Shown here in pieces: positions 204-47,400 of a stretch of 56,126 bases of DNA (positions are counted from its first letter, which is position 1; each line of letters begins with the position of its first letter). The DNA is from an uncultured delta proteobacterium (lineage in GTDB: Bacteria > Desulfobacterota > Syntrophia > Syntrophales > Smithellaceae): assembly GCA_903907985.1 (NCBI GenBank), contig CAIVQG010000006.1, positions 1 to 56,126 of the forward strand. Direction: 5' to 3'. The notes below the pieces were generated by a model. It was not told the origin of the DNA. It saw only the letters and a program-made list of their open reading frames with translations, and searched no databases. Position numbers and translations under genes: made by a program.

Positions 204-1775
204 TTAAAGTGGGATGTTGTTGTGCTTTTTGGGCAGACGGACCTGCGTCTTGTCCTTAAAAGCATCGAGAATGGCTACGACGCGTTTTCTTGTCTCCCAT
301 GGGGAGATAATCTCCTCAATAATCCCCATGGATGCGGCAAAGTAGGGATTATTAAACTGCTCTTCATAGGCGGCAACCAACTCGCTTCTTTTTGCTCCTG
401 GATCCTCAGCATTCGCAATCTCCTGGCGATAAACAATGTTGCAGGCCCCCTCTGCGCCCATAACGGCGATTTCCGCAGATGGCCAAGCCATGACATAGTC
501 TGCCCCGAGTTGCTTACTGCACATGCCGATATAAGCGCCACCGTAATCTTTACGGGTCACAACGGTGATTTTGGGCACTGTGGCCTCGGAATAGGCATGA
601 AGAAGCTTAGCGCCATGACTGATGATCCCTGACCATTCCTGGACTGTTCCGGGCATATAACCGGGAACGTCGGAAAACGTCAGAAGGGGGATGTTGAAGG
701 CATCACAGAAACGGATGAAACGGGAAGCCTTGTCAGATGCGTTGACATCGAGGACTCCGGCTCCGAATTTAGGATTGTTGGCGATGACGCCAACCGTTTG
801 CCCCATTATCCGGATAAAGGCAACAAAGATATTTTTTGCCCATAACTCGTGTGGTTCGAATATTTCATTGTTGTCCGCCACGGCCATTACAACCTGCTTC
901 ATATCATAGCCCCTTGACGCCCGGTCAGGGATAATCTTATCCAGTTCCGGGCATTCCCGGTCGGGGCTATCCGTACAGGGGGCGACGGGAATGGGGCTGT
1001 GGCAACTGTCCGGAAGGTAGGAAAGAAGTATTTTTAACTTGTTGATGCAGTCCTCATCATTTTCCGTGGCGAAATGACAGACACCGCTCTTCGTGGCATG
1101 GGCCATCGCACCGCCGAGATCATCATGGGTCACTTCTTCGCCGATGACGGCCTTGATGACATCAGGACCGGTAATATACATGTAGGAACTTTTCTTAACC
1201 ATGAAGACCCAGTCCGTCAGCGCAGGGGAATACACGGCGCCGCCTGCAGTGGGTCCCATAATTGCAGTTATCTGGGGGATATAACCTGAACCGATGGTGT
1301 TGCGATAAAAAATCCCGCCGTAACCTTCCAGGGCCGGGACTCCTTCCTGAATCCGTGCGCCACCGGAGTCGTTCATCGACACAAATGGTTTCTTTGCATC
1401 AAGGGCCATATCCATGATCTTCCATATTTTCTTGGAATGCATCTCTCCAAGGCTTCCTCCGGCGCTGGTAAAATCCTGGGCTGCCGCATATACGGTCCGG
1501 CCGTTGACTTTGCCGAAACCAACGATGACTCCGTCGGCATTGATTTCCTTCTTATCCAGACCAAATAGTGTGGATCGATGTTTTACAAATAACTGGACTT
1601 CCTGAAAGGTTCCTTCATCATAAAACATCGCCAAACGCTCCCTGGCCGTCATCTTGCCCAGTTCATGTTGTTTCTTGATCATCTTTTCGCCGCCCATAGC
1701 CTTCAGGGCTTCTCTGCGGGCCTCGAATATACTGATCTTTTCTTCCGTTATTCCTTTAGTATTATCTTTTGCCAT
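204..1775 (-). CDS. Acyl-CoA carboxyltransferase subunit (propionyl-CoA carboxylase beta / methylmalonyl-CoA decarboxylase alpha type)
   Basis: A 523-aa biotin-dependent carboxyltransferase with two crotonase-fold halves. It moves CO2 between carboxybiotin and an acyl-CoA. The N-half carries the SGGARIQEG and GPTAGGAVYSPAL acyl-CoA and oxyanion motifs; the C-half has DYGGAYIGMCSK and EIAVMGAEGA, typical of PCC-beta and MmdA. Length matches the family (510-530 aa). The start is an ATG with AAGGAGAT about 9 bases upstream. It is last in the minus-strand acyl-CoA cluster but separated from it by 460 bp and a strong hairpin, so it probably has its own promoter. Substrate (propionyl/methylmalonyl against glutaconyl) cannot be decided from sequence. 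No biotin carboxylase or membrane decarboxylase subunit is encoded nearby. Confidence 0.9.
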   Translation of the reverse strand: MAKDNTKGITEEKISIFEARREALKAMGGEKMIKKQHELGKMTARERLAMFYDEGTFQEVQLFVKHRSTLFGLDKKEINADGVIVGFGKVNGRTVYAAAQDFTSAGGSLGEMHSKKIWKIMDMALDAKKPFVSMNDSGGARIQEGVPALEGYGGIFYRNTIGSGYIPQITAIMGPTAGGAVYSPALTDWVFMVKKSSYMYITGPDVIKAVIGEEVTHDDLGGAMAHATKSGVCHFATENDEDCINKLKILLSYLPDSCHSPIPVAPCTDSPDRECPELDKIIPDRASRGYDMKQVVMAVADNNEIFEPHELWAKNIFVAFIRIMGQTVGVIANNPKFGAGVLDVNASDKASRFIRFCDAFNIPLLTFSDVPGYMPGTVQEWSGIISHGAKLLHAYSEATVPKITVVTRKDYGGAYIGMCSKQLGADYVMAWPSAEIAVMGAEGACNIVYRQEIANAEDPGAKRSELVAAYEEQFNNPYFAASMGIIEEIISPWETRKRVVAILDAFKDKTQVRLPKKHNNIPL

Positions 1776-2235: not shown

Positions 2236-3570
2236 TTACCATTTCTTTCGCCAGATGTTCATTTTTTCCGCTTCTTTGATCAGGCCATCACGCAGATCCG
2301 GTGGGGCGATGTTGATCAGAGCCTCTGCTCTCTGCCAGGTGGATTTACCGGCCAGATCCGCTACGCCGTATTCCGTCACGATCAGGTGCGCCTGGGTGCG
2401 CGGCACGGTTACAATGGAACCCTGCGGCAACATAGGTACGATGCGGGATTTTTTTGCGCCTGTCTTTTTGTCTGTGTAGGCGGCGTTGCAGCAGATGAAG
2501 GATACGCCTCCATTAGACATGTAGGCGCCGGTGGCGTAATCCAACTGTCCGCCGGTGCCGCTGATGTGGCGCGGTCCCGAGGACTCGGAGGAAACCTGAC
2601 CGAACAGATCTACTTCGACACAGGCGTTGATGGAAACCATGTTGTCATTCTGGGCCATTATATGTGGTGCATTGGTGTAGGAGACAGGATAGGATGCCAG
2701 AGAGGGGTTCTCGTTAAGCCAGTCATACAGGAACTGGCTGCCGGCTGCAAAGGCATAAGCACTCTTGTTCTTGTCTATGCCCTTCTTCTTGTTAGTCAGT
2801 TTGCCGGCCTCGTACATGTGGAAGTAGGCATCCACCAGCATCTCTGTGTGGCAACCCAGGTCTTTAAGATCTGAGTGAGCAAGCTGGCTGCCGATATAAT
2901 TGGGCAAACCGCCGATGCCGAGCTGAATGCAGGCGCCATTGGGGATTAGGGGGACGATGTGTGCAGCGATCTGCTTGTCGATTTCAGTCGGTGCAGCCGG
3001 TGGGATGACCTCTATCTTGGAATCAAACTCGACCACGTAATCGACTTCCGAAATGTGTATGGTCTCTTCGGCGCCACCCATAGCCCAGGGAAGCAACGGA
3101 TTAACTTCAAGGATGATCTTCTTGGCAACATCCGCGACTGCGCGTACTGCAGCGTTTCCCATGTGAGTACTGAAGAAGCCGTCCTTGTCCATCTTGCTTA
3201 CCCGGAGCATAGCAACATCGAGACTCTTTATGCTCTTTCTGTAGAACAGGGGCTGGTTGCGGAAGATCATGGGGTGGTAATAGCAGCGGCCAAGATCGTG
3301 TTTCTTGCGATCGTAACCAGAAAAATGCCAGTTGTTTAATGTGAAGACTTTCCCCTCGGGGTCTGCTTCGAGACAGGCGTGGGCGCTCAGGCTCAAACAG
3401 TGGCGAATATTGATGTCCTTGAGTTCGTCCTTACGGGCCGCAAGGGCGCTGTCCAGACCAACCGGCTTGGTATGACCGAATCCGTAATCAATCCAGTCTC
3501 CACTTTTGACCACACTAACCGCTTTTTCGGGGCTAACAAGTTTACTTTTGTACTGTTCCGCATACGACAT
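2236..3570 (-). CDS. Acetyl-CoA hydrolase/transferase family CoA-transferase (butyryl-CoA:acetate or 4-hydroxybutyrate type)
   Basis: A 444-aa class I CoA-transferase of the Cat1/But/4-hydroxybutyrate CoA-transferase family. Such enzymes exchange CoA between an acyl-CoA and a carboxylate such as acetate through a glutamyl-CoA thioester. The C-terminal half has the glycine-rich loop GIGGLPNYIG (about 218-227) followed by HTEM, where E243 is the expected catalytic glutamate, and a late SGTGGQLDY motif. Length fits the family. The gene lies between two hairpins (about 3759-3792 upstream, 2180-2215 downstream), so it is likely a separate transcription unit. In this cluster it could activate the starting acid or release the acyl product from CoA; the substrate is not determinable here. 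Confidence 0.88.
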   Translation of the reverse strand: MSYAEQYKSKLVSPEKAVSVVKSGDWIDYGFGHTKPVGLDSALAARKDELKDINIRHCLSLSAHACLEADPEGKVFTLNNWHFSGYDRKKHDLGRCYYHPMIFRNQPLFYRKSIKSLDVAMLRVSKMDKDGFFSTHMGNAAVRAVADVAKKIILEVNPLLPWAMGGAEETIHISEVDYVVEFDSKIEVIPPAAPTEIDKQIAAHIVPLIPNGACIQLGIGGLPNYIGSQLAHSDLKDLGCHTEMLVDAYFHMYEAGKLTNKKKGIDKNKSAYAFAAGSQFLYDWLNENPSLASYPVSYTNAPHIMAQNDNMVSINACVEVDLFGQVSSESSGPRHISGTGGQLDYATGAYMSNGGVSFICCNAAYTDKKTGAKKSRIVPMLPQGSIVTVPRTQAHLIVTEYGVADLAGKSTWQRAEALINIAPPDLRDGLIKEAEKMNIWRKKW

Positions 3571-3811: not shown

Positions 3812-4027
3812 CTATTCAAGAATGACCAGCACTTGATTTGTATCAACCTTGTCTTTTTCTTTTACCTTGATTTCTTTGACTGTACCTGCAGCCGCTGAGC
3901 AAATGGGATTCTCCATTTTCATGGCTTCCAGAATAATCAGCTCGTCATCGACTTGGACCTTATCACCAACGTTAACCAGAATCTCGGCAATTGTCCCCGG
4001 CATATGTGCTACAACTTCTACTGCCAT
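3812..4027 (-). CDS. Biotin carboxyl carrier protein, minimal biotinyl domain
   Basis: A 71-aa protein that is only a biotinyl/lipoyl-attachment domain. The biotinylation motif EAMKMEN has its acceptor lysine at residue 37, and glycines flank it at the expected hairpin turns (VGDKV, AAGTV). Start is an ATG with a clear AGGAGG upstream. It lacks the Pro/Ala-rich linker and N-terminal segment of AccB or GcdC, so it resembles the small carriers of carboxyltransferase systems (PycB/MmdC ends, 1.3S type). As the only carrier in the window it is the likely partner of the two carboxyltransferases encoded on either side of it. Confidence 0.92.
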   Translation of the reverse strand: MAVEVVAHMPGTIAEILVNVGDKVQVDDELIILEAMKMENPICSAAAGTVKEIKVKEKDKVDTNQVLVILE

Positions 4028-4140: not shown

Positions 4141-5331
4141 TTATTTTTTCCAGATCGGATCTGCCGGACCCCAATTTTTGGGCAGTATCGCCTTTGCCGG
4201 CCATTCCGCCGGGGCATTCTGCCCGGGTTTTTCACCGGCTTTCTCGATCAGCTTTTTCAAACCGGGACGGGCAAATTTCATATGACCAGCCTTGACGGTC
4301 CGGCCATTGTAAATGACTTCCGAGCGCAGATGGCCTCCCATGGTCTTCTCCATCTTTTTGCCCAGCCACAAAACGCGGTCTACATCAAAGCCATGCTCGA
4401 TGCCAAGTTCATCAATCTGGACAAGCAGATCTTCCAGGCAGATGAGACCGACAAAGCGGGGATCTTCGTAATAGTAATCGCCGGTGCCCCGGATCGGGCT
4501 GTCGTCAAGGAAGTTTGCCGGCTGGCCACCCAGTCCGCCCAAAGTTCCCTCGAACCGCGTGAAACCGGCCATCAGAGCTGCCAGGATCGATGACGAGGCA
4601 ACACGTTTCGTCTCATGGAGATGGAGCAGATGCGCCTCGGGATTAGGCATTGCATCCATAACCATGGAACAATAGCGGTAAACATCAGCCGCGTTGGCGG
4701 AGCCGTCGTGGTCGGCATGCTCGATGTCATGAGCGCCGATGGAAAACCACCGTTTGGTAAACTCCACGGCATCTTCCATTTTGGTAGCGCCACTGATGGG
4801 GCTACCCCAAATTGTGCTCACGGTACCGCACATCTTGAGGCCGGCATCCCTGGCTTTGGCTATGCACTTCTCAGCTTCTCTCCAGTACTGAGAAAGGGTC
4901 GTTCCGGAATTGGCAAAGTGATGCTCCGGATCTGTGGACACCATCATGAGAATGCGGTCGGGACCGATCCCTTGCTTCTTCAATTCAATGGCCCTGTCTA
5001 CGGCGGATTCCCGGATCGTAACGGCCGTCATCACAATCTCGCCATAATTGATCCCCGCCTTTCCACAGCGCTTTTTGAACTCGTCGCTGCGTAATGCCGT
5101 CAATATCATTTCCGCATCGGCAAACTGCGGCGTGGTAACTGCGCTACCCAGATTAGTTACTTCGATTTCTTTAGCCCCGGCCAGAATCATTTCCTGACCG
5201 TAGAAAATCTTGGCTTGCGTCGAAATGAATTTTTCACAATGCTGGAAACCATCTCTGATGGTAATATCACCAATGGTCACCTTTTTGGGCATCCTTGGAA
5301 AAATTTTCCAAAGGTCATACTCTGTTGCCAT
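4141..5331 (-). CDS. HMG-CoA-lyase-like DRE-TIM metallolyase lacking the catalytic cysteine
   Basis: A 396-aa TIM-barrel protein of the HMG-CoA lyase / pyruvate carboxyltransferase superfamily. The metal- and carbonyl-binding motif at the end of the first strand is IRDGFQ (R26, D27) and the HxH metal pair is HLHETK (H237, H239). In HMG-CoA lyases the loop GLGGCPY supplies the general-acid cysteine; here the corresponding loop reads GLGGQPAN, with Gln at residue 270, and is followed by an insertion before the EDL segment. The protein is about 80-100 aa longer than ordinary HMG-CoA lyases. Fold and metal site are well supported; classical HMG-CoA cleavage is not. It lies 34 bases after the crotonase gene, so the two are probably cotranscribed and act in sequence. 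Confidence 0.8.
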   Translation of the reverse strand: MATEYDLWKIFPRMPKKVTIGDITIRDGFQHCEKFISTQAKIFYGQEMILAGAKEIEVTNLGSAVTTPQFADAEMILTALRSDEFKKRCGKAGINYGEIVMTAVTIRESAVDRAIELKKQGIGPDRILMMVSTDPEHHFANSGTTLSQYWREAEKCIAKARDAGLKMCGTVSTIWGSPISGATKMEDAVEFTKRWFSIGAHDIEHADHDGSANAADVYRYCSMVMDAMPNPEAHLLHLHETKRVASSSILAALMAGFTRFEGTLGGLGGQPANFLDDSPIRGTGDYYYEDPRFVGLICLEDLLVQIDELGIEHGFDVDRVLWLGKKMEKTMGGHLRSEVIYNGRTVKAGHMKFARPGLKKLIEKAGEKPGQNAPAEWPAKAILPKNWGPADPIWKK

Positions 5332-5365: not shown

Positions 5366-6166
5366 TTATTCGCCTTTAAATACCGGTTTGCGCTTCTCCG
5401 CAAAAGCAGCCAGGGCTTCCAGGCGATCCTTCGTGGGAATAGTCACTTCATAGGCTTTGGATTCCAGCGGCAGAGCCACTCCAAGACTTGCTTCCGATCC
5501 GTAATTAAGGGCAAATTTGGCCTGTGCAACCCCGATGGGACCGTTCTTGGCAATCTCGCGTGCCAGCTCGAGCGCCGCATTCATCAACTCATCCGGTTCT
5601 ACAACCTTACTTACCAAGCCGATGTCCAGTGCTGTCTGGGCGTTAATCCTTCGCGCCGTATAGATCAATTCCTTTGCCTTGGCAACGCCGACGATTCTAG
5701 GAAGTCTCTGCGTTCCACCTGCACCAGGAATAATCGCCAAGCTCGTTTCTGTAAGACCCATAATCACGTTGGACGATGCAATGCGGAGATCACAAGCCAA
5801 CGCTATTTCTGTTCCACCGCCGAAGGCAAAGCCGTTGATTGCGGCTATCACCGGCACACGAACCTGCTCCACAGCGGTAAAAGTGCTACGTATGGTGAAA
5901 ATAAAACGGCGAACCTGATCTTGTGTTAAGGTCCTTCTTTCTTTCAGATCTGCACCCGTTGAGAAAGACCACTTTTTCGGATCATCACCCGATTTAGCGC
6001 CGGTGATGATGATGCACCGCAGATCGAGATCAAAGTTGGCCTCCCGGATCACGTCAGCCAAGACGGACAATAGATCGAAATTAAAACAGTTCATGGCTTC
6101 AGGCCGATTCAGCGTCAGAATCAGGATGCCGTCATCGGTTCTTTCTTGTAACAACATATCTGCCAT
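5366..6166 (-). CDS. Enoyl-CoA hydratase/isomerase family protein, methylglutaconyl-CoA hydratase-like
   Basis: A 266-aa crotonase. It shows the oxyanion-hole motifs STGADLKER (about 70-78) and NGFAFGGGTEIALACD (about 111-126) and the ETSLAIIPGAGGTQRLPR segment carrying the second catalytic acid. The GADLKER and AKELIYTARRINAQ stretches resemble AUH/LiuC methylglutaconyl-CoA hydratases more than generic crotonases. Start is an ATG preceded by AAGGAGAAAT. It lies 35 bases downstream of the MCC-beta-like carboxyltransferase gene and 34 upstream of the HMG-CoA-lyase-like gene, an arrangement recalling leucine/isovalerate (liu) clusters. Hydration of a branched or dicarboxylic enoyl-CoA is inferred from this context. 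Confidence 0.88.
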   Translation of the reverse strand: MADMLLQERTDDGILILTLNRPEAMNCFNFDLLSVLADVIREANFDLDLRCIIITGAKSGDDPKKWSFSTGADLKERRTLTQDQVRRFIFTIRSTFTAVEQVRVPVIAAINGFAFGGGTEIALACDLRIASSNVIMGLTETSLAIIPGAGGTQRLPRIVGVAKAKELIYTARRINAQTALDIGLVSKVVEPDELMNAALELAREIAKNGPIGVAQAKFALNYGSEASLGVALPLESKAYEVTIPTKDRLEALAAFAEKRKPVFKGE

Positions 6167-6201: not shown

Positions 6202-7881
6202 TTAGACCTTAAGATCTCCCCAAATGGATTCTTTAATGGGCACACGAAGTGCAAGCTCGAAGCCTCTGGCTATCTTGTTGCGTGCTTCATTGAAGGCCAC
6301 AACGCCATCATGGAACAGCAGTGAGCCAGTAAAGAAAGGATGACCCTCTGAGTCGTAGCGATCGCGCATCATCTGGCGAAATTGTGCCATTTCTTCCTCA
6401 TTCACCACGCCGCCCTTGTCGATAATGTTCTTCCGGCGAACCGTTTCCACGATGAAGCCCGCCGTCTCACCGGACATAACAGTCGTGCGACCTCTCATGT
6501 TGGTAAAGGCAAATCTCGGCTTAAAGGCCCTTCCGCACATCCCGTAGTTAGCCGCCCCATGATCGGGACCGATAACATAGGTGATCTTTGGTGTATCCAA
6601 ACAAGTACAAGCACGCACCATATCGGAACCATATTTACCAATACCACCCCATTCCTCAGCCTTGCCGACCATGTATCCTGGTGATCCCTGGAGGAAGAGC
6701 ACAGGCAGTTTTGAGTTGCCGCATCGGATCATCCATTCGGTCGCCTTTCTTGCCGCGTCGATATAGATAACACCGCTTGCATTAGAGGCGATGACTCCAA
6801 CAGGAATCCCCTTCATCCACATTTTACCGGCGATGACGGAATCACCGCGCCCGGGACCATAGGTGGGTTTATACTCATGGAAGTAGCTGTCGTCAGCCAG
6901 ACACTTGATGGTGTCCTTAATATTGATGTACTGATAGGTGTCAACGGGTGTACTGCGCATCATCTCGCTGAAATCGAACTTAGGTTCTCTTGATTCCCGA
7001 CGTTCGATGCAAAGCTTATTTGACGGTTCAAATTCCATCATGGCGCGCAGCTTTGCAATACCTTCCTCCTGGCTCCTGACAAAATGATCGCAACCGCCGG
7101 AGTGCTGCGTATGAACATAGGCGCCACCCAGATCTTCCGGAGAAACAGTTTCACCGATGGCTGATTTAACCATAGGAGGACCGGCCAGGAATGCGTAAGC
7201 CATCTTCTCGATCATGATCGATTCGGATGCCAGATAAACGATATAGGCGCCACCTGCGGTGTTGCCGCCGGTAGACAGTGTATACTGACGGATTCCCTTG
7301 GCGGACATACGGCACATATTGTAAAACATGGTTCCAAAATGTCCGTCATCGGCAAAACAGCCAAGTTGCAGGGGAAGGTTTATGCCGCCGGAGTCGGCCA
7401 TATAGATGCAAGGAAGTTCACATTGTTCGGCAATCGCCTGGGCGCGCATATGTTTTTTCAGGGTTATGGGGAAATAGGTGCCCGCGGCATAACGATTTTC
7501 ATTGGCAAAGATCATGCAATCTCTACCCATGACGGTGCCAACACCGGTAACCACACCGCCGCCGGGAATATGGCCTCGCTTCTCCGATTCATAAATTTCG
7601 CCGCCGTAAAGTTTCTTCTTTCCAATGTCGTAACCTGCATCAAGACCAAGTTCATACAACTCCGTTCCCGGATCGATAAGCATATTTATCAGTTCACGCA
7701 TCGTTTTTTTGCCCTGTTTGGCCAAGCGGGCCACCTGCTCGTTACCGCCAATATTGTATGCCTCAGCACGATGTTTTAACAGAATCTCGTCTTGAGCCTG
7801 CCAGAAAGCCAGGTTTTTTTCTCGCTCCGCTGCAAGACGCTCGGTTCTCGATAATCTTGGTTTTTTCTCTTCTTCCGACAT
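6202..7881 (-). CDS. Biotin-dependent carboxyltransferase, methylcrotonyl-CoA carboxylase beta / glutaconyl-CoA decarboxylase alpha-like
   Basis: A 559-aa two-domain crotonase-fold carboxyltransferase. The N-half contains YMADSGGINLP, DDGHFGTMFYN, RMSAKGI and GGNTAGGAYIVYLASES, an order and wording close to MCC-beta (LiuB). The C-half has GSPGYMVG and GAANYGMCGRAF. It is longer than PCC-beta and near the size of GcdA and MCC-beta. An AGGAGG lies just upstream of the ATG. It is flanked by glutaconate CoA-transferase genes upstream and a hydratase gene downstream. It could carboxylate an enoyl-CoA or, with a Na+-pumping subunit encoded elsewhere, decarboxylate a glutaconyl-CoA type compound. 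Direction and substrate remain open. Confidence 0.85.
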   Translation of the reverse strand: MSEEEKKPRLSRTERLAAEREKNLAFWQAQDEILLKHRAEAYNIGGNEQVARLAKQGKKTMRELINMLIDPGTELYELGLDAGYDIGKKKLYGGEIYESEKRGHIPGGGVVTGVGTVMGRDCMIFANENRYAAGTYFPITLKKHMRAQAIAEQCELPCIYMADSGGINLPLQLGCFADDGHFGTMFYNMCRMSAKGIRQYTLSTGGNTAGGAYIVYLASESIMIEKMAYAFLAGPPMVKSAIGETVSPEDLGGAYVHTQHSGGCDHFVRSQEEGIAKLRAMMEFEPSNKLCIERRESREPKFDFSEMMRSTPVDTYQYINIKDTIKCLADDSYFHEYKPTYGPGRGDSVIAGKMWMKGIPVGVIASNASGVIYIDAARKATEWMIRCGNSKLPVLFLQGSPGYMVGKAEEWGGIGKYGSDMVRACTCLDTPKITYVIGPDHGAANYGMCGRAFKPRFAFTNMRGRTTVMSGETAGFIVETVRRKNIIDKGGVVNEEEMAQFRQMMRDRYDSEGHPFFTGSLLFHDGVVAFNEARNKIARGFELALRVPIKESIWGDLKV

Positions 7882-8006: not shown

Positions 8007-8777
8007 CTACCTGCCGATGACGTATCGATACGGGTCTATCTCCTCCCGCAGGATAGTTAATTCATGTTTTGTCGGAGGTTTGTTCTCTACGATCTTTTTA
8101 GCCTTCAAAAGTTCAAAACCACAATTATTCTGAACATCTTTTTCGGAATAACCGGGGTTGACCGCAATAAGCCGCATCCTCTTCGATTCCTCTTCAAAAT
8201 CCATCACTGCCATATTGGTAATGATCTTGTAAGGACCTGCTCCTAATGGAAGACCTGATTTTGCCCTCGAGTCACCACCCGTCAGCCAGCCCGGCGTCGT
8301 TATATATTGACATTTTTCGGTAAATCGTTTGGAATCCTGTGGCGTCATGACCATCATGCGCCAACAGAAGGATGCAAAATCATTAGCTCCGCCGCTACCG
8401 GGGAATCGTACCTTCGGTTTCTGATGGTCGGGACCGATCCTCGTGGAATTCAAATTCCCGTACATATCAATCTGGGCCCCGCCTAGGAAGGTATAATCCA
8501 GCATTCCCCGGCAGGCTGTCTCCATAACTTCGCACATGCCGCTCGCCATGACGGCCTTATATGTCGTTCTGGAATCACCGACAGATATGGGCATTTCAGG
8601 GATCAAGGGAGCAGCCCCGCCTGCCTCAAAAAATATTACCAGACTTGGTGAATGAGCCTTTTGTGCAAGCATCGCCGCCGCACAAGGCGCACCCGTTCCT
8701 ACTCCGACAGAGGAACCGTCTTCCAATTCCCTTGCCGCACTGCATATCATTAGTTCCATGGTATTATAATCAGCCAT
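8007..8777 (-). CDS. gctB: Glutaconate CoA-transferase family protein, subunit B
   Basis: A 256-aa beta subunit of a class I CoA-transferase (GctB family). The glycine loop VGVGTGAP lies at about 24-31 and the segment VIFFEAGGAAP puts Glu at residue 51, where GctB enzymes carry the glutamate that forms the acyl-CoA intermediate. Retention of this Glu favours a working CoA-transferase over the related AibA/AibB-type decarboxylases. AGGAGG precedes the ATG by about 9 bases. The gene starts 17 bases after gctA, so the subunits are cotranscribed. The acid activated (glutaconate, methylglutaconate or another dicarboxylate) is not decided by sequence. Confidence 0.85.
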   Translation of the reverse strand: MADYNTMELMICSAARELEDGSSVGVGTGAPCAAAMLAQKAHSPSLVIFFEAGGAAPLIPEMPISVGDSRTTYKAVMASGMCEVMETACRGMLDYTFLGGAQIDMYGNLNSTRIGPDHQKPKVRFPGSGGANDFASFCWRMMVMTPQDSKRFTEKCQYITTPGWLTGGDSRAKSGLPLGAGPYKIITNMAVMDFEEESKRMRLIAVNPGYSEKDVQNNCGFELLKAKKIVENKPPTKHELTILREEIDPYRYVIGR

Positions 8778-8794: not shown

Positions 8795-9787
8795 CTAGTC
8801 TCTCGCTTTGAGAAACAAAAATTCTTTTTCCCTGAGTTTCAACATCTTGTGCATTCCACCGTTTTTCTCAATATACTCAAAGTGATCTTTGCTGCTGTAA
8901 ATATTCTTATCGAGAAAAGCCTTGAATGCTTCCGGATTCTCTTCAACCTTCATCCATTCTCGCAGGTGCTCCTCATCGGAAAAATATTCTCCATACATAT
9001 TTCCAGGATAACTGCCGTAAGGAACAGGACATACGGCATCAACTAGCCAGTAGGGAATTACGGTGAAACTTGGGTCTCTGCGAATCTCCTCTTCAGTAAC
9101 CAGTCGTTCGCATGTTATGATCAAATGCTTAGAGGCTCTTGCCACATCAAAATCGGAAACGGTGATGCCCCGTACGCGACAATTACCATAAATATCCGCC
9201 TCATGAACATGAATGGCCGAAACATCAGGATAAAGGGCTGGATTTGCGAAATATTTCGTCCCCGTAAATGGACATTCGACGATCTTTCCGCCACTGTATT
9301 TGAAAGTATCTGTTCCCATGATGTTTCTTGACGGGTAGTAAGAAACGCCTGCTGCTGCTGCCTTGAAGCGAACGGACAGTGAGTAGTTGGTCCATTCACT
9401 TACTTCTACCTTTCCGCTTTCCATATAACGTCTTGCATTGGGAGACAAACCGCGAGCCTCCAGACCGACGATATAGGCTGCATCACATCTGTTAAAAACT
9501 TCTCCCGCACAGAGAATTTGGAAATCATGGGTGGACGTATGGCCTGCAAAACCCATATTTTTCCTTCCCTGTCTTAGTATTTCATGCGCGACAGCAGCGG
9601 GTATCCTGTTTGCCCCAAAACCTCCGAGAACCAGATAATCGCCGTCATGAACATACTTCGCCACAGCTTCCTTTACAGACATCAGCTTAGATTCCAGCTT
9701 GCGGTTCTTCTTGCGGAAGAATTCACGCGCCTTATCCGCATCCGGGTCTGTAAAGATTTTTCCTATTCCTTGATCAATCACTTGCAC
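8795..9787 (-). CDS. gctA: Glutaconate CoA-transferase family protein, subunit A
   Basis: A 330-aa alpha subunit of the GctAB-type CoA-transferase. The characteristic LVLGGFGANRIP motif is at about 52-63, followed by GFAGHTSTHD and GLEARGLSPN-type segments typical of GctA. The start codon is GTG with AAGGAGGT about 8 bases upstream; no ATG in the first 35 codons has a comparable site. It is the first gene of the minus-strand acyl-CoA cluster. About 1.1 kb upstream on the same strand is a decayed sigma-54 activator that may once have controlled it. Confidence 0.85.
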   Translation of the reverse strand: MQVIDQGIGKIFTDPDADKAREFFRKKNRKLESKLMSVKEAVAKYVHDGDYLVLGGFGANRIPAAVAHEILRQGRKNMGFAGHTSTHDFQILCAGEVFNRCDAAYIVGLEARGLSPNARRYMESGKVEVSEWTNYSLSVRFKAAAAGVSYYPSRNIMGTDTFKYSGGKIVECPFTGTKYFANPALYPDVSAIHVHEADIYGNCRVRGITVSDFDVARASKHLIITCERLVTEEEIRRDPSFTVIPYWLVDAVCPVPYGSYPGNMYGEYFSDEEHLREWMKVEENPEAFKAFLDKNIYSSKDHFEYIEKNGGMHKMLKLREKEFLFLKARD

Positions 9788-10819: not shown

Positions 10820-11700
10820 ATCTCTTTTATTTGTTTGAACTTAATTTTCTAATTCCTTTAGCTTCCTCCAGAGAGTTGTGTAGCCAATGCCTAATTTTTT
10901 GCATTAGCCCTCCTTCTAAAATGATCTTGCGCAAGGAGGAAATCCTCCGCGTTTAGAACAATATTGTTGGTCAGCGCTACGGCCCTTTCAATACTATTTT
11001 TCAATTCACGCACATTCCCCGGCCAATCATACGCACTGAGTATTTTCTTTGCTTCTCCGGATATTCCGGTTACATTTTTTCCCATCTGGCGAACAGAGTC
11101 TTTTAGAAAATATTCAAGCAGCAGAGGAATATCCTCTTTCCGGTCCCTTAGCGGCGTTATTTTTATATCAATGACGCTTAACCGATAAAATAAATCTGAA
11201 CGAAAATTCCCATCTAATGCCATTTTGGCAATATCTTTATTAGTCGCAGCGATAATTCGGACATCAACCTGTTTGGCCGACGTATCAGCTACTCGCCGGA
11301 TTTCTTTTGACTCGATAACGCGCAATAACTTGGATTGAAATTGCGCAGTATCATCTCCAATTTCATCCATAAAAAGGGTTCCTTTATCGGCAGCTTCGAA
11401 CAAACCATTTTTATCACGAACTGCACTAGTAAAAACCCCTTTAACGTAGCCAAACGATTCACTTTCCAGAATGCTGTCCGGTATCGCTGCGCAATTAATG
11501 GCTATGTAAGGATTGCCTCTGCGCTTTTTGCTGCTGTTGTGGATCGCTTCCGCAACAAGTTCTTTACCAGTTCCACTTTCACCGGTAAGAAGAACATTGC
11601 TTTCAATTTCAGACACTTTGAGAGCAATTTCAATTGTCTTCTTTATGCTATCCGAAACGCCAACTATATCTTCGAATCCGCAGGGTTTTTTACATCTTTA
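10820..11700 (-). pseudogene. Broken sigma-54-dependent transcription activator (AAA+ domain remnant)
   Basis: The readable part (GTG at 11616, or upstream residues from about 11695) is an NtrC-type AAA+ domain: Walker A GESGTGKE, Walker B GTLFMDEIG, the R-finger segment DLFYRLSV and YDWPGNVREL. It lacks any sensor domain: a TAA lies just upstream of the FEDIVGVS residues that begin AAA+ domains. The GAFTGA loop that contacts sigma-54 reads GVFTSA. At the C-terminus the frame ends at TAG in an A6 run; in the -1 frame it continues as KLGIGYTTLWRKLKELEN, the recognition helix of a FIS-type HTH, but the first HTH helices are absent. Truncation, altered motif, internal deletion and frameshift together indicate a pseudogene. 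Confidence 0.75.
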
Positions 11701-18716: not shown

Positions 18717-19406
18717 TTATCTAACTATAACAGAGGTATTTTCTTTTTCAAGGCGTTTTTTGATTTTATCTAATTCGCCATCCGGATAGTTTTTCTCCTT
18801 AAGGAATTTTTTATTCAGAGTTTTTACCCCAACAAATTTTTGCAAAGCATATTTGCTTGTGCCCGCAATAAGTTTGGCGATTTTCATAATATCATTCGGA
18901 GTAAGCTGTGATTGAACAATCGTCGTGCGGAATTCATGCGGAATCTTAGCTTGCAAAATAATTTTCACGCTTTCCCCTATTTTTTCAACATCGACCGGCA
19001 CACCGGTAACATTCGCATATTTCTCCCACGGCGCCTTTATATCCATGGCAATAAAATCCAGCAACTTTTCAGCAAGCAGAGCTTTTATGACTTGCGGCTG
19101 CGATCCGTTGGTGTCCAGCTTGACGGCAAATCCCATTTTATTAATTTTTTTAATGAAGGGCACTAAATCATCCTGGAGAGTCGGCTCGCCACCGGTAATG
19201 GTCACGGCATCGAGCTTCCCGCGGCGCGTATCGAGAAAAGCCAGCACATCGCGCTCGCAGATGCAGGGCGCAAACAAACGTGGGTTCACCAATTCGGGAT
19301 TATGACAATATGAACATTTGAAATTGCACCCCTGTAAAAAGACAATGGCACTAATTAATCCCGGATAATCAATAAGTGATACTTTTTGCAAACCGCCAAT
19401 TTTCAT
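18717..19406 (-). CDS. nrdG: Anaerobic ribonucleoside-triphosphate reductase activating protein
   Basis: A 229-aa radical SAM activase that installs the glycyl radical on NrdD. The cluster motif is CNFKCSYC (C27, C31, C34) followed by TGGEPTLQ. Length fits the longer NrdG form. It lies downstream of nrdD on the same strand, but a 123-bp repeat element now separates them. Confidence 0.92.
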   Translation of the reverse strand: MKIGGLQKVSLIDYPGLISAIVFLQGCNFKCSYCHNPELVNPRLFAPCICERDVLAFLDTRRGKLDAVTITGGEPTLQDDLVPFIKKINKMGFAVKLDTNGSQPQVIKALLAEKLLDFIAMDIKAPWEKYANVTGVPVDVEKIGESVKIILQAKIPHEFRTTIVQSQLTPNDIMKIAKLIAGTSKYALQKFVGVKTLNKKFLKEKNYPDGELDKIKKRLEKENTSVIVR

Positions 19407-19511
19407 TTTGCTATTCCTCTATTTTCTAGACGCAAATATATACTCAGAAGAAAAATATTTATAGTTTCTAATCTTGATTAATCTGCAAAGTATAAAAATT
19501 GCTAATTTATG

Positions 19512-19634
19512 ACGACCCTGTAAAAAATCCGCAGGCAAGGCACGCGAAGCCTTCGGAGTGCGGCGTATAATTGATACGCCGCAGCGATGGAAGGTTGCAG
19601 CGCAACGCCGCATCCGGCTTTATTACGGGGTCGT
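19512..19634. mobile_element. MITE-like repeat, copy 2, between nrdD and nrdG
   Basis: A 123-bp element with terminal inverted repeats of about 19 bp (ACGACCCTGTAAAAAATCC; 16 of 19 match the complement of the right end). Its core, about 19532-19585, is about 85% identical by eye to copy 1 (AGGCAAGGCACGCGAA, CCTTCGGAGTG, ATACGCCGCA). A second palindromic stretch (GCGATGGAAGGTTGCAGCGCAACGCCGC) follows. It ends 4 bases before the nrdD stop. Confidence 0.65.
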
Positions 19635-19637
19635 TAC

Positions 19638-21725
19638 TTATTGGAAGCTGAATTCCTGCCTCAAGCCGAACTCTTCCTGCTTGCCCTTATTCCACTGTTT
19701 AACCGGCCGCAGATAACCAACCACGCGGGAATAAACCTCGCAATCATCGGCACAGGTGGGGCACTTTTCCTGTTCACCTTTTATATAACCGTGTGACGGG
19801 CAGACGCTAAAGGTGGGTGTAAAGGTAATATATGGCAAATGATAATTGTAGCACATCTTTTTAACTAATCTCTTTACCGATTGGGGATCATCAATTCTCT
19901 CCCCGGCAAAGGTATGAAAAACCGTACCTCCCGTGTATTTTACCTGAATTTCATCCTGTAAATCGAGTGCTTCAAAGACATCGTCGGTATAGTTTACCGG
20001 CAGTTGCGTTGAATTTGTATAAAATGGCTCTGTGTGTTTCGCCTTGCCGTCGCTGGCGCAAATAATATCATTGTATTTTTCTTTATCAATTTTCGCCAAA
20101 CGATAAGAAGTGCCTTCCGCCGGTGTCGATTCCAGATTATAATTATTTCCGGTTTCCTTCTGGAAGTCGATGAGCTTCTTTCTCATAAAATCGAGAACCT
20201 GTTTCGTAAAGGCCTGGCCTTCTTTCGAAGCAATGTTACTACCCAGCAAATTTAAACAGGCTTCATTCATCCCGATCAGACCGATAGTGGAAAAATGATT
20301 CTTCCAGTATTCCTTGAATCTCTCATTTACATTGCGCAAGTAATACTTCGTGTATGGATAAAGATTGCCATGGGTAAATTTTTCCAGAACTTTTCTTTTT
20401 GTCTCCAGGCTTTCTTTCGCCACTTCCATCAGTTTTTCCAACCGTTGCAAGAAGTCTTTCTTGGATTTGGCCAGGTAGGCAATGCGCGGCATGTTAATGG
20501 TGATAACACCAATAGATCCGGTCAGAGGATTCGAACCAAACAGCCCGCCGCCCCTCATTTCGAGTTCACGATTATCGATACGCAAGCGGCAGCACATGCT
20601 CCGGGCGTCTTCCGGATTCATATCGGAATTGATGAAGTTGGAAAAATATGGAACACCGTACTTTGCCGTCATTTCCCACAAATCAAGCATATTGGGATCA
20701 TCCCAGTTAAAATCTTTTGTGATGTTGTATGTGGGAATCGGGAACGTAAAGACTCTTCCCTTGGCGTCGCCTTCCGCCATAACCTGCAGGAAGGCTTTAT
20801 TAAATATATTCATTTCTTCCTGAAAATCTTTGTAAATCTCTTTTTGCGGCTTACCGCCGATAATCACATGCTGATCAGAGTAATATTTGGGCACCGTAAG
20901 ATCCAACGTGACATTAGTAAAAGGCGTCTGGAAACCGACTCGAGTCGGAACGTTAATATTAAAAATAAACTCCTGCAGGGCCTGTTTTACTTCGACAAAT
21001 TGCAACTTATCATAACGAATAAAAGGAGCTAAAAGGGTATCAAAATTGGAGAAAGCCTGCGCCCCGGCTGCTTCACCCTGCAAGGTGTAAAAGAAGTTCA
21101 CCACCTGGCCTAAAGCACTGCGCAAATGCTTGGCTGCTTTGCTTTCCACCTTGCCGGAAACACCCTGGAAACCCTGCAAAAGCAGATCGTATAAATCCCA
21201 CCCGACACAATATACAGAAAGCAAACTCAAGTCATGAATATGGAAATCTCCTTCATTATGTGCTTTTTTAATTTCCGGAGTATAAATTTCATTGAGCCAG
21301 TATACCTTGCTTACTTCCGAGGAAATGTAGTTGTTCAAGCCCTGCAGTGAATAATCCATATTGCTGTTTTCATTTATTTTCCAGTCGGCTTTTTTCAGAT
21401 ATTGATCAACAAGATCAACTTCCATTTTATTGGTGATATCACGCAAACGGGCATGTTGATCGCGATAAATAATGTAGGATTTGGTCGTCTTGCGGTATGA
21501 GGATTGTAAAAGAACCTCTTCCACGATATCTTGAATTTCTTCTACATTAAGAACCCGGCTGTCAAATAATTTTTCGGCAAGATTTAGAACCTTGATGGTT
21601 AGCTTACGGGCTTCTTGCAGATCAAATTCACCTGTGGCTGCACCGGCCTTGGCAATGGCGTTGGTGATTTTTTCCACGTTGAATTTGACTAAACGACCAT
21701 CTCTCTTTTTAATTTTTGTATTCAT
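19638..21725 (-). CDS. nrdD: Anaerobic ribonucleoside-triphosphate reductase
   Basis: A 695-aa class III ribonucleotide reductase that makes dNTPs without oxygen. An N-terminal ATP-cone (about 1-90) is followed by the ten-stranded barrel. The C-terminal zinc site (CPSHG then CPTCADDC) precedes the glycyl-radical loop RVVGYLRP, with the radical glycine at residue 670. It is activated by the nrdG product encoded downstream. Two NrdR-like boxes lie in the upstream region. Its presence indicates anaerobic growth. Confidence 0.96.
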   Translation of the reverse strand: MNTKIKKRDGRLVKFNVEKITNAIAKAGAATGEFDLQEARKLTIKVLNLAEKLFDSRVLNVEEIQDIVEEVLLQSSYRKTTKSYIIYRDQHARLRDITNKMEVDLVDQYLKKADWKINENSNMDYSLQGLNNYISSEVSKVYWLNEIYTPEIKKAHNEGDFHIHDLSLLSVYCVGWDLYDLLLQGFQGVSGKVESKAAKHLRSALGQVVNFFYTLQGEAAGAQAFSNFDTLLAPFIRYDKLQFVEVKQALQEFIFNINVPTRVGFQTPFTNVTLDLTVPKYYSDQHVIIGGKPQKEIYKDFQEEMNIFNKAFLQVMAEGDAKGRVFTFPIPTYNITKDFNWDDPNMLDLWEMTAKYGVPYFSNFINSDMNPEDARSMCCRLRIDNRELEMRGGGLFGSNPLTGSIGVITINMPRIAYLAKSKKDFLQRLEKLMEVAKESLETKRKVLEKFTHGNLYPYTKYYLRNVNERFKEYWKNHFSTIGLIGMNEACLNLLGSNIASKEGQAFTKQVLDFMRKKLIDFQKETGNNYNLESTPAEGTSYRLAKIDKEKYNDIICASDGKAKHTEPFYTNSTQLPVNYTDDVFEALDLQDEIQVKYTGGTVFHTFAGERIDDPQSVKRLVKKMCYNYHLPYITFTPTFSVCPSHGYIKGEQEKCPTCADDCEVYSRVVGYLRPVKQWNKGKQEEFGLRQEFSFQ

Positions 21726-39799: not shown

Positions 39800-41095
39800 G
39801 TGAAATTGGGCATGAATCAACCACCGGAGTTGGAAACGCAGAATGGACCACCTTTAACAAGGATTCAAAGATTATCTCACTTTATCCGCCGCCACTGGGT
39901 AATATTTATTATATTTAGCGTCATTATTATTGCAGGCATAATATTCATCAAGCCAATTATGACGATGTTTGGTATCGGCACAAAACTTCCCGCTTCTAGT
40001 CAACGTCCACAACCGGTAACTGCAGTAATGACCAATAAGGCCGATTTTGATGTCAATCTGAAAGGGTTGGGCACCGTTATACCTACTAACACTGTTACCA
40101 TCAAATCTCAGGTCAGTGGACAGCTAATGAGGGTACACTTTAAGGAAGGGCAGTATGTTAATAAAGGTAACTTGATCGCTGAAATTGATCCGCGACCCTT
40201 CCAGATTCAACTTATGCAAGCCCAGGGGCAACTTGCCCGTGACGAAGCATTTCTGAAAAACGCCGAAGCTGATCTGGCACTTTACAAGCAGTTGCTTACC
40301 CAGGATTCTATTGCCGCGCAGCAGGTATCGACACAGCAATCACTGGTAAAACAATATAGGGGAGTGATTGAAACAGACAAGAGTCAAATCGCCAATGCTA
40401 AACTCCAGCTTACTTATGCCCGTGTTGTCGCTCCTATTACAGGACGCGTCGGTTTACGGCAGGTTGATCCGGGCAATATGGTTCAGGTTAATGATCCCAA
40501 CGGCATAGTGGTGATCACACAGCTACAACCTATCACAGTAGTATTTTCGCTGCCGCAGGACAATTTGACGGTTCTAATGAAACGCTGGAATGCCGAGGCG
40601 ACTTTACCTGTCCAGGCCTATGATCAGGAAGGAAAGGTATTACTGGCAAACGGCAAACTGCTTGCAGTTGATAATCAGATCGATACTACAACAGGGACAA
40701 TTAAACTGAAGGCAATATTTGACAACAAGGATAATAAGCTCTTTCCTAATCAGTTTGTTAATATTCGGCTGAAAGTGGATATCCTTCGTGATGCGGTTGT
40801 AATGTCCACTGCTGCAGTGCAACGCGGCAGTATCGGCACTTTTGTTTATGTGGTCAAAGATGACAAAAGCGTAACAGTCAAAATGTTAAAGTTGGGGCCA
40901 ACGGAAGGCGATAATGTTGTCGTGATGGAAGGCCTGTTACCTGGAGAATCGGTGGTTACTGTCGGAGGCGACAAGTTGCGTGAAGGTACCAAAGTAGAGA
41001 TTATTACACCGGGCAGTAGCGCGGCTGGGATTCGTGATGGAAAACCGGGCATCGCTGCCGGTAAAAAGAAACGACAGTCTTCGTCACCAGAATAA
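39800..41095 (+). CDS. RND efflux periplasmic adaptor (MdtA-like membrane-fusion protein)
   Basis: A 431-aa adaptor linking inner-membrane RND pumps to an outer-membrane channel. The N-terminus has one membrane anchor (HWVIFIIFSVIIIAGIIFI, about 34-52), then the lipoyl half VTIKSQVSGQLMRVHFKEGQYVNKG (here named by V-S-G-Q-L and GQYV), a coiled coil (about 135-200), the second lipoyl half and beta-barrel/MP domains, ending in a Lys/Ser-rich tail. Start is the GTG with AAGGA 5 bases upstream; ATG 39812 is the alternative. First gene of a four-gene operon. Confidence 0.9.
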   Translation: MKLGMNQPPELETQNGPPLTRIQRLSHFIRRHWVIFIIFSVIIIAGIIFIKPIMTMFGIGTKLPASSQRPQPVTAVMTNKADFDVNLKGLGTVIPTNTVTIKSQVSGQLMRVHFKEGQYVNKGNLIAEIDPRPFQIQLMQAQGQLARDEAFLKNAEADLALYKQLLTQDSIAAQQVSTQQSLVKQYRGVIETDKSQIANAKLQLTYARVVAPITGRVGLRQVDPGNMVQVNDPNGIVVITQLQPITVVFSLPQDNLTVLMKRWNAEATLPVQAYDQEGKVLLANGKLLAVDNQIDTTTGTIKLKAIFDNKDNKLFPNQFVNIRLKVDILRDAVVMSTAAVQRGSIGTFVYVVKDDKSVTVKMLKLGPTEGDNVVVMEGLLPGESVVTVGGDKLREGTKVEIITPGSSAAGIRDGKPGIAAGKKKRQSSSPE

Positions 41096-41143
41096 ACTAT
41101 CTCCACCCTGGATCTCATTAACATAACTCCTAATAGGCAATAT

Positions 41144-44100
41144 ATGAATCCTTCTCGTCCCTTCATCTTGCGTCCCGTAGCCACATCACTGTTCATGGCA
41201 GCAATTCTAATTGCGGGTCTCATCGCTTATCGGGTGCTCCCCATTTCCGCACTGCCGCAGGTTGATTACCCGACCATTCAGGTTATAACCCTTTACACGG
41301 GAGCAAGTCCGGACGTTGTTACTTCCTCCATTACAGCCCCACTGGAGCGACAATTCGGTCAGATGCCGGGGCTGAATCAGATGTCTTCGACAAGCTCAGG
41401 CGGCGCGTCGGTTATCACGTTGCAATTCAGTCTTAGTCTGAACTTGGATATTGCGGAACAGGAAGTACAGGCGGCGATCAATGCTGGCTCTAATTTTCTT
41501 CCTACAGACCTGCCGATGCCGCCGATCTATAGCAAAGTCAACCCGGCGGATGCACCAATAATGACCTTGGCCATCACGTCTAAAACACTGCCGTTACCAA
41601 AAGTTCAGGATCTCATCGACACGCGCGTCGCCCAGAAAATATCGCAACTGCCGGGTGTTGGAATGGTCAGTATCAGCGGCGGACAAAGACCGGCGGTACG
41701 CATTCAGGCCAATCCCAAAGCATTGGCAGCCCATAAACTTACGCTGGAGGATTTACGGACGACCATCAGTACGGCCAATGTCAATCAGGCCAAAGGCAGT
41801 TTTGACGGTCCGGAGCGCGCTTCCACCATCGACGCCAATGATCAGATTAAGATCGCCTCGGAATATGAAAAAGTCATTGTTGCCTACCGGAATGGCGCGC
41901 CGGTGCGTCTGACCGATGTGGCGGATGTCGTCGATGGTGCCGAGAATGTCAATCTGGCCGCCTGGCGCGATCAAACGCCGGCCGTCATCGTGAATATTCA
42001 GCGCCAGCCAGGCGCCAATGTTATCGAAGTTGTCAATCGCATCAAAACCATCATTCCGCAATTGCGGTCATCTCTGCCCGGTTCTGTTGACGTTGTCCTG
42101 TTGACCGACCGTACTACAACTATCCGGGAATCAGTTAACGACGTGCAGTTTGAACTTATCCTGGCCGTTGCGCTCGTCGTCATGGTCATTTTCCTTTTTC
42201 TGCGCAATCTATCCGCAACCATTATTCCGAGTATCGCCGTGCCGCTATCGCTGATCGGAACATTTGGTCTTATGTACCTCTTCGGTTTCAGCATCAACAA
42301 TCTGACTTTGATGGCCTTGACGATCTCGACTGGTTTTGTCGTGGATGACGCCATTGTTGTCATCGAAAATATCGCCCGTTACATCGAACAGGGCCTGTCC
42401 CCGCTGGAGGCTGCCTTCAAAGGGTCCAGGCAGATTGCCTTTACGATCATTTCGCTTACTTTTTCCCTGATCGCCGTTTTGATTCCTCTTCTTTTCATGG
42501 GAGATGTTGTAGGGCGGCTATTCCGGGAATTTGCGATCACGCTGGCTGTCGCCATATTGCTTTCCGCCCTTATTTCACTGACACTGACACCGATGATGTG
42601 CGCCAAACTGTTGAAACATGTACCGGAAGAAAAGCAGGGACGTTTTTATCGCCGCAGCGGCTTGTTTTTTGAAAGGACAATTGCCCGTTACGGAAAGATG
42701 CTCACCTGGGTCCTTGATCATCAGAAAGCCACGCTCACGGTGGCCATTGGTACGCTTGTGCTGACGATTATTTTGTATATCATCATCCCCAAAGGTTTCT
42801 TTCCCATACAGGATACGGGCATGATTCTCGGCATATCAGAAGCTCCGCAATCCATTTCGTTTTCCGCCATGGCCGAGCGTCAGCAGACATTGGCTAAAGT
42901 TATTCTTCAGGACCCGGCCGTTGAAAGTCTGTCGTCCTTCATTGGCGTCGATGGAACCAATGTAACGTTGAACAGCGGACGTATGATGATCAATCTGATC
43001 CCGAAGAATAAACGTAACCTTGATGCTTCTGGTGTTATCCGTCGTTTACAGGCAAGACTTGCTGCGGCGGATAGTAAAGGAATAACCCTTTACATGCAGC
43101 CGGTGCAGGATCTGACAATTGAAGACCGGGTCAGCCGCACACAATATCAATTTACGCTGGAGTCCGCTGATCCTGACGAACTCAGCCTTTGGACCCGTCG
43201 CCTTGTTGATCATATTTCGCGCTCACCCTATCTGACAGATGTAGCCAGTGATTTACAGGATCAGGGATTACAGGCCTATGTGGACATCGACCGAGATGCG
43301 GCCGGACGGCTCGGAATCACGACTGCTGCGATTGATAATATCATCTATGATGCTTTCGGCCAGCGTCTTGTTTCCACCATATTCACCCAATCTAACCAAT
43401 ACCGTGTTGTTATGGAGGTCAAGCCTGATTATAAAAAAGGTCCGGCGGCCCTGAATGATTTGTATATAACTTCACAATCCGGAACACAAGTTCCTCTGGG
43501 AGCCATCGCTCGGATATCGGAAAAACCGGCGTCACTTGTAGTCAATCACCAGGGGCAATTCCCCTGTGCCACCATTTCTTTTAATCTGGCGAACGGAGAA
43601 TCACTGGGAAATGCGGTCTCGGACATCGAAAAAGCCGAGCGCGAAATCGGCATGCCCATCAGCGTCAAGACCAGTTTTCAGGGATCGGCCCTGGCTTTTC
43701 GGGCGTCGCTCACCGGCACGCTTTTATTAATCCTGGCGGCCATTATTACGGTGTATATCGTCCTGGGCATCCTTTATGAAAGTTATATCCATCCGATTAC
43801 GATTCTATCCACGCTGCCTTCCGCCGGAGTCGGCGCTTTGCTGGCACTCATGATTTCCGGAAATGATCTGGGGATTATAGGAATTATCGGCATCATCCTG
43901 CTCATCGGCATCGTCAAGAAGAATGCCATTATGATGATTGACTTTGCTCTGGATGCAGAGCGCAAAGAGGGCAAGCCGCCGCGGGAAGCGATTTATCAGG
44001 CATGCCTGCTGCGCTTCCGGCCGATTATGATGACGACCATGGCGGCCCTGCTGGGTGCACTGCCACTGATGCTCGGTACCGGAGTAGGTTCGGAGTTACG

Positions 44101-44269
44101 CCATCCTCTGGGCATTACCATGGTGGGAGGGCTTATTTTGAGTCAGATACTGACACTATTTACGACTCCGGTCATTTATCTGGCTTTTGACAACCTGAGC
44201 CGTAGAGTCAGGTTAAAAACAGGTCATCATCTTGTAACCGTTGATCAAGGCAATGGGGAAACATTATGA
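41144..44269 (+). CDS. RND efflux pump inner-membrane subunit (MdtB-like, HAE1 family)
   Basis: A 1041-aa resistance-nodulation-division transporter, proton-driven. Twelve membrane segments in two repeats, with two large periplasmic loops. TM4 carries [21 protein letters not shown], with the two Asp needed for proton translocation. TM10-12 contain [16 protein letters not shown] and the family's [17 protein letters not shown]. It overlaps the next pump gene by 4 bases (ATGA), so the two are translationally coupled and probably assemble as a heterotrimer, as MdtB and MdtC do. Confidence 0.95.
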
Positions 44270-47200: not shown

Positions 47201-47400
47201 CCGGAGCAGGTTCCGAATTACGCAGGCCTTTGGGAATTTCTATTGTGGGCGGCTTGATCGTCAGTCAGATGCTGACTCTCTATACGACGCCTGTCGTTTA
47301 TTTATATCTTGATCGTTTCCGGTTGTTTTGCTTAAAGGCATTAGAAAGGAAAAGTGCCCCAACCCCTCAGCGGGCACTGGAGGATACTTCTAAAGGATGA
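44266..47400 (+). CDS. RND efflux pump inner-membrane subunit (MdtC-like, HAE1 family)
   Basis: A 1044-aa RND transporter, the paralogue of the preceding gene, about half identical by eye along its length. The proton-relay segment is [21 protein letters not shown] (D-D retained) and the conserved [22 protein letters not shown] and [17 protein letters not shown] follow. It overlaps its upstream and downstream neighbours by 4 bases each. Two different pump subunits in one operon is the hallmark of MdtABC/MuxABC-type exporters, which handle bile salts, novobiocin or aromatic compounds in known systems. Confidence 0.95.

Follow-up and report, generated by a model that had tools for sequence, protein, structure and literature searches.

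A glutamine-type family of HMG-CoA-lyase-like proteins in Desulfobacterota, probably acting in anaerobic isovalerate breakdown without the catalytic cysteine

The 56,126-nucleotide stretch of DNA analysed here (the window), from an uncultured member of the Smithellaceae, encodes an HMG-CoA-lyase-like protein with glutamine in place of the catalytic cysteine. We consider it probable, at roughly 0.7, that this protein serves the anaerobic degradation of isovalerate (leucine) as a metal-dependent TIM-barrel lyase, splitting HMG-CoA into acetyl-CoA and acetoacetate without a catalytic Cys. As judged from aligned sequences, the residue change is genuine, ancient, and linked to a rebuilt active-site loop.

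Family assignment and predicted fold

The open reading frame at 4141..5331 on the minus strand is genuine, begins with ATG, and encodes 396 amino acids, with Q270, an insert at 274-290, and L296 as its distinguishing features. Its match to Pfam HMGL-like (PF00682) reaches 78.9 bits against a gathering cut-off of 29, and this score, together with the TIM-barrel fold, makes it a member of the HMGL-like superfamily (PF00682, DRE-TIM). Among NCBIfam models, hydroxymethylglutaryl-CoA lyase (NF004283) fits best, at about 104-109 bits (108.6 in one scan), far under the curated cut-off of 246 bits, so that by score the protein does not count as a classical lyase. The Gln-containing relatives tested score between 104 and 200 bits with the same model, all below 246. 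Solved structures matched by sequence are exclusively HMG-CoA lyases, with 6nds at the top.

An AlphaFold2 model calculated from 96 aligned sequences has a mean pLDDT of 93.5, with the insert as its least certain region (65-86 per ten-residue block). The closest solved folds are those of HMG-CoA lyases, with Z 38-42 and rmsd 1.6-2.4, followed by homocitrate, citramalate, and isopropylmalate synthases at Z of at most 30. An HMG-CoA-lyase fold is thus predicted by the model. Classical HMG-CoA lyases (human HMGCL, 2cw6/3mp3; Bacillus, 1ydo; Acinetobacter, 6nds; LiuE type) share the TIM barrel at Z of about 41 and are 24-26% identical to the window protein. Since two defining features of these Cys lyases are lacking, the Gln proteins are placed in the wider HMGL-like superfamily only, as a separate Gln-type clade. 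Their context suggests that they work like HMG-CoA lyases.

A rebuilt active site

Human HMGCL relies on Arg41, Glu72, Tyr167, and Cys266 for catalysis and on Asp42, His233, His235, and Asn275 as metal ligands; Cys266 and Asn275 are counted as essential in HMG-CoA lyases (PMC6941031). In the window protein, the GGLGGCP motif of the Cys lyases reads GGLGGQPAN, and the position of the catalytic Cys is taken by Q270 (codon CAG, window 4524-4522). Gln occupies this position in all 99 distinct relatives, which span 43-95% identity and lack the classical Cys, while the 33 Cys lyases of the same organisms all retain it. The replacement of the Cys, which an earlier note on this DNA had read from the window protein, is therefore a property of the family, and a sequencing error or lone mutant at this position is ruled out. 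The classical Asn metal ligand has changed in the same strict manner, with Leu296 in 99/99 Gln proteins and Asn in 33/33 Cys lyases.

Much of the remaining site is kept. The counterparts of human Arg41 and Glu72 (R26 and E57) are present in every one of the 99 Gln proteins, as are H237 and H239, and D27 in 97; Asp207 is also kept in all or nearly all. The R-D (R26-D27) and H-x-H (H237-x-H239) motifs are thus conserved, as the note had stated, and the counterparts of Arg41, Asp42, Glu72, His233, and His235, as well as a position in isovaleryl-CoA operons, are common to the Gln type and the classical enzymes. Because Asp, H-x-H, Arg, and Glu are retained while Cys and Asn are replaced throughout the 99 relatives, the site appears rebuilt rather than decayed. 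This pattern would agree well with the earlier idea that the protein is a metallolyase whose chemistry is altered or whose acid is another residue.

New conserved features surround the changed loop. The insertion noted after GLGGQPAN is real and comprises 17 residues (274-290) relative to the Cys lyases, including a GTGxYYY motif. This insert is among the features that are invariant in the Gln family and not so in the Cys lyases, along with E204, H208, D209, H234, Y149-W150, W175, and Y220. Compared with classical HMG-CoA lyases, the Gln type differs by Cys266 to Gln270, Asn275 to Leu296, the GTGxYYY insert, DHDG for DTxG, its own clade, and scores under the curated cut-off. A longer C-terminus had also been claimed; the extension is genuine in the window protein, but it occurs in only part of the family and is missing from members of 336-345 aa.

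A search of the alignment of the 99 Gln proteins for an invariant Cys column found none, the best being C168 (86/99) and C156 (81/99), which at the level of this alignment rules out a substitute Cys elsewhere. Human Tyr167 was considered as an additional lost residue and dropped, as this position varies among Cys lyases too.

Genomic context in the window and in relatives

The lyase gene lies in a minus-strand cluster with the order GctA-type, GctB-type, carboxyltransferase, hydratase, Gln lyase, biotin carrier, butyryl-CoA:acetate CoA-transferase-like, and PCC-beta-like. Directly upstream of the lyase, across a 34-nt gap, a 266-aa crotonase (5366..6166, minus) resembles 3-methylglutaconyl-CoA hydratases, as the note had proposed. 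It is AUH/YngF-like; human 3-methylglutaconyl-CoA hydratase (AUH, 1hzd) is among its nearest solved relatives, and the two have GADLKER and MGL-ET-LAIIPG-GGTQRLPR in common. The preceding 559-aa carboxyltransferase subunit (6202..7881, minus) is methylcrotonyl-CoA-carboxylase-beta-like, matching MCC beta chains at E of about 1e-110; it matches glutaconyl-CoA decarboxylase at just 8e-21, and that identity was rejected in favour of the much stronger match to MCC beta. Further upstream lie a glutaconate-CoA-transferase subunit B type protein (8007..8777, minus) and a 330-aa subunit A type protein (8795..9787, minus). Comparison with 1poi_B shows that its Glu (iivEsg) is retained in the subunit B type protein as iffEag, unlike in the 5mzw group, which makes an AibAB-type decarboxylase unlikely for this pair. 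A sigma-54-type activator, identified by sequence motifs only, is encoded upstream of the cluster (10891..11616, minus, ORF as listed).

Directly downstream of the lyase is a 71-aa biotin carrier protein (3812..4027, minus), followed by a 444-aa butyryl-CoA:acetate CoA-transferase-like protein (2236..3570, minus; 546 bits, under the cut-off of 675), and a 523-aa carboxyltransferase of propionyl-CoA-carboxylase-beta/methylmalonyl-CoA-decarboxylase-alpha type (204..1775, minus). The cluster thus holds two biotin-type carboxyltransferase subunits (PCC-beta-like at 204-1775, MCC-beta-like at 6202-7881) and a biotin carrier (3812-4027), and a biotin carboxylase gene is absent from it. This set would suit an ATP-free transcarboxylation from methylmalonyl-CoA to methylcrotonyl-CoA. 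Of a liu-type operon, only the carboxyltransferase, the hydratase, and the lyase are found in the cluster; the isovaleryl-CoA dehydrogenase (IVD)-type gene of this genome lies on another contig, C65 (WEIGAGTSEIRRM). Elsewhere in the window, ORF sequences indicate an anaerobic ribonucleotide reductase with its activating enzyme (18717-21725), expected in a strict anaerobe, and an RND efflux operon consisting of an adaptor, two inner-membrane pumps, and an outer-membrane factor (39800-48821).

Relatives were gathered from a genome collection, 99 related genomes, and 395 Desulfobacterota genomes; their loci are mostly metagenome-assembled. A Gln-type member is encoded in 96 of the 395 Desulfobacterota genomes, and outside the phylum in the Negativicutes (one genome) and the Ignavibacteriales/Chlorobi (two genomes). 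The genus of the window includes Smithella sp. PtaU1.Bin162 (contigs of G002, L059/L060). The Gln proteins group as a single, fully supported clade in a 77-row tree, and IVD-type operons appear within this clade at three separate places. A literature search for a Gln-type lyase, or for a Smithella with such an enzyme, found nothing, and a paper on a limonene enrichment contains no relevant lyase.

Homologues share both the Gln and the gene neighbourhood, the two points that the note had proposed to check. Among 64 clustered loci, a hydratase-like gene is present in 40, and a carboxyltransferase-type gene and an acyl-CoA dehydrogenase in 31 each. At eight loci (L086, L102, L106, L109, L110, L111, L114, L120), the dehydrogenase carries the IVD signature YEIG(A/G)GT(S/N)E, and at these eight a Cys lyase is not nearby. 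The lyase of L086 is 78% identical to that of the window, and its dehydrogenase matches isovaleryl-CoA dehydrogenases best (6e-123). The full liu-type set of IVD, MCC beta-like subunit, methylglutaconyl-CoA hydratase, and lyase is present at L086, L106, L109-L111, L114, and L120, and L042 combines the window's own arrangement (GctAB-CT-ECH-lyase) with an IVD-type gene close by. Elsewhere among the Desulfobacterota, classical liu operons with IVD, MCC beta, hydratase, and biotin carboxylase have a Cys lyase at the corresponding position (L176, L180, L181, L183). Gln-type operons would encode the same reaction set as the liu/yng leucine-isovalerate operons (IVD, MCC, methylglutaconyl-CoA hydratase, HMG-CoA lyase), differing from them by the Gln lyase, a carboxyltransferase of a separate clade (about 40-45% identical to classical MCC beta), and the lack of a biotin carboxylase gene.

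The carboxyltransferase and the Gln lyase also travel together. An orthologue of the former (at least 54% identity) is found in 47 of the 395 genomes, 45 of which also encode a Gln lyase, with p of about 1e-29 in a test that treats the genomes as independent, though they are related. Classical MCC beta occurs in 21 of the 395 genomes, and the Gln lyase in none of these 21. Of 20 genomes that encode a Gln lyase, 17 encode a Cys lyase too, mostly away from such operons; in the other three (G405, G420, and G302, 93-99% complete), no Cys lyase match was found.

Other arrangements were observed as well. Several Syntrophales and others (L042, L048, L104, L105) encode a Cys lyase right beside the Gln lyase in the same operon. 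At many loci, that of Desulfococcus multivorans included, the dehydrogenase beside the Gln lyase belongs to the short-chain type, whose loop carries Glu (IGEGTSE). In one Negativicutes genome (L055:4764-8389), the Gln lyase is flanked by a CaiB-type CoA-transferase, whose top models are succinate-glutarate and succinyl-CoA:mesaconate, and by a CitMHS symporter; hydratase and carboxylase are absent from this locus, which looks as if it allowed a hydroxydicarboxylate to be taken up, activated, and cleaved. At L123, L124, and L125, the gene of a divergent Gln lyase (46-47%) comes after that of a glutaconyl-CoA-decarboxylase-like subunit; only L123 and L125 also encode a divergent crotonase of 405-412 aa, along with a mutase whose nearest relative is 2-hydroxyisobutyryl-CoA mutase.

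For D. multivorans DSM 2059, an isovalerate degradation cluster is described at 3.20 Mbp, with AcsA6, EchA2, Mcc, and HmgL reported to form only in cells adapted to 3-methylbutanoate (PMC5109826). The genome in our set that is probably this strain (G255) encodes a Gln lyase at 3,210,183-3,211,337, 70% identical to the window protein and surrounded by an acyl-CoA synthetase, an XRE-type regulator, a carboxyltransferase, a hydratase, and an acyl-CoA dehydrogenase. Its two Cys lyases lie at 0.12 and 1.31 Mb. We infer, partly from map position, that the HmgL of the isovalerate cluster is this Gln lyase. Like the window protein, HmgL would then be a Gln-family member in an operon which, from the published description, is of the same kind; the D. 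multivorans operon has an acyl-CoA synthetase and that of the window CoA-transferases instead. In the portion of the publication that describes the cluster, HmgL is called a lyase by annotation only, and its lack of the Cys goes unmentioned there (PMC5109826).

Discussion

The neighbourhood and the D. multivorans cluster, reported to form only on isovalerate, make ordinary HMG-CoA cleavage the most likely step. The Gln lyase would act at the end of the pathway from isovaleryl-CoA through 3-methylcrotonyl-CoA, 3-methylglutaconyl-CoA, and HMG-CoA to acetyl-CoA and acetoacetate. The suggestion of a new step in acyl-CoA breakdown is accordingly left unsupported, as the gene context and what is reported of the D. 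multivorans proteome (PMC5109826) point to HMG-CoA cleavage in isovalerate breakdown.

The adjoining of Cys and Gln lyases in several operons is the feature that this reading does not explain, as the two would be redundant if both cleave HMG-CoA. In these shared operons, the Gln lyase possibly has a different substrate. Extended to the family, this would make it a lyase of the same kind for another hydroxyacyl-CoA, such as 3-hydroxyglutaryl-CoA, citramalyl-CoA, or another branched hydroxydiacyl-CoA, with HMG-CoA left to the adjacent Cys lyase. The short-chain-type dehydrogenases at many loci, the CaiB-type CoA-transferase and CitMHS symporter of L055 in the absence of hydratase and carboxylase, and the glutaconyl-CoA-decarboxylase-like subunit and mutase paired with the lyase across L123-L125 are in line with such a role. 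Yet we regard it as unlikely for the family, given the eight IVD-type loci where no Cys lyase is near, one with a lyase 78% identical to that of the window, the three Gln-lyase genomes without any Cys lyase match, and a D. multivorans cluster that, in the published account, was formed on isovalerate only (PMC5109826).

The pairing in some operons, together with the loss of the catalytic Cys and one metal ligand, might also be taken to indicate a weak or inactive paralogue that regulates the adjacent Cys lyase or joins it in a mixed oligomer. This is improbable, since Arg26, Glu57, Asp207, His237, His239, and Asp27 (97/99) are kept across 43-95% identity, new invariant residues surround the changed loop, and the Gln lyase stands alone in many operons and in the three genomes without a Cys lyase. 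Least probable of all is a role in carboxyl transfer as a member of the pyruvate carboxylase/transcarboxylase-5S branch, partnered by the adjacent biotin carrier. That branch belongs to the same superfamily, and the carrier gene lies directly downstream in the window and at about eight other loci, but it is absent at most loci. Moreover, the operon already has carboxyltransferase subunits of another family, the 5S and OadA models lie far under the HMG-CoA lyase model and are not listed for the window protein, and the predicted structure is nearer to HMG-CoA lyases (Z 41) than to 5S (Z 24).

If the Gln protein cleaves HMG-CoA, Arg26, Asp27, Glu57, His237, and His239 would serve metal and substrate as usual. 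The metal would be held by D27, H237, and H239, possibly with N273, two residues past P271, standing in for the lost Asn ligand, and R26 and E57 would act as in known lyases. With HMG-CoA as the probable substrate, the acetyl-CoA enolate would presumably be protonated by a non-Cys group. Candidate acids or donors are H208-D209, Tyr286/287 of the inserted GTGxYYY loop, and a water held by Q270; H208-D209 and the tyrosines are proposed on conservation alone, as they are invariant in the Gln family and absent from the Cys lyases. Whether these changes amount to a mechanistically separate class of HMG-CoA lyase, with a rebuilt metal site (Asn replaced, perhaps by N273) and non-thiol enolate protonation (H208-D209 or the Tyr loop), common to many strictly anaerobic Desulfobacterota and a few other phyla, is in our view evenly balanced.

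If a large family carries out HMG-CoA cleavage without Cys266 or Asn275, the thiol would be dispensable for the reaction. The Gln family would then offer a natural comparison for the way in which metallolyases protonate the enolate. GGQPxN would also serve as an annotation marker for the isovalerate pathway of anaerobes, whose lyase falls under the curated HMG-CoA lyase cut-off.
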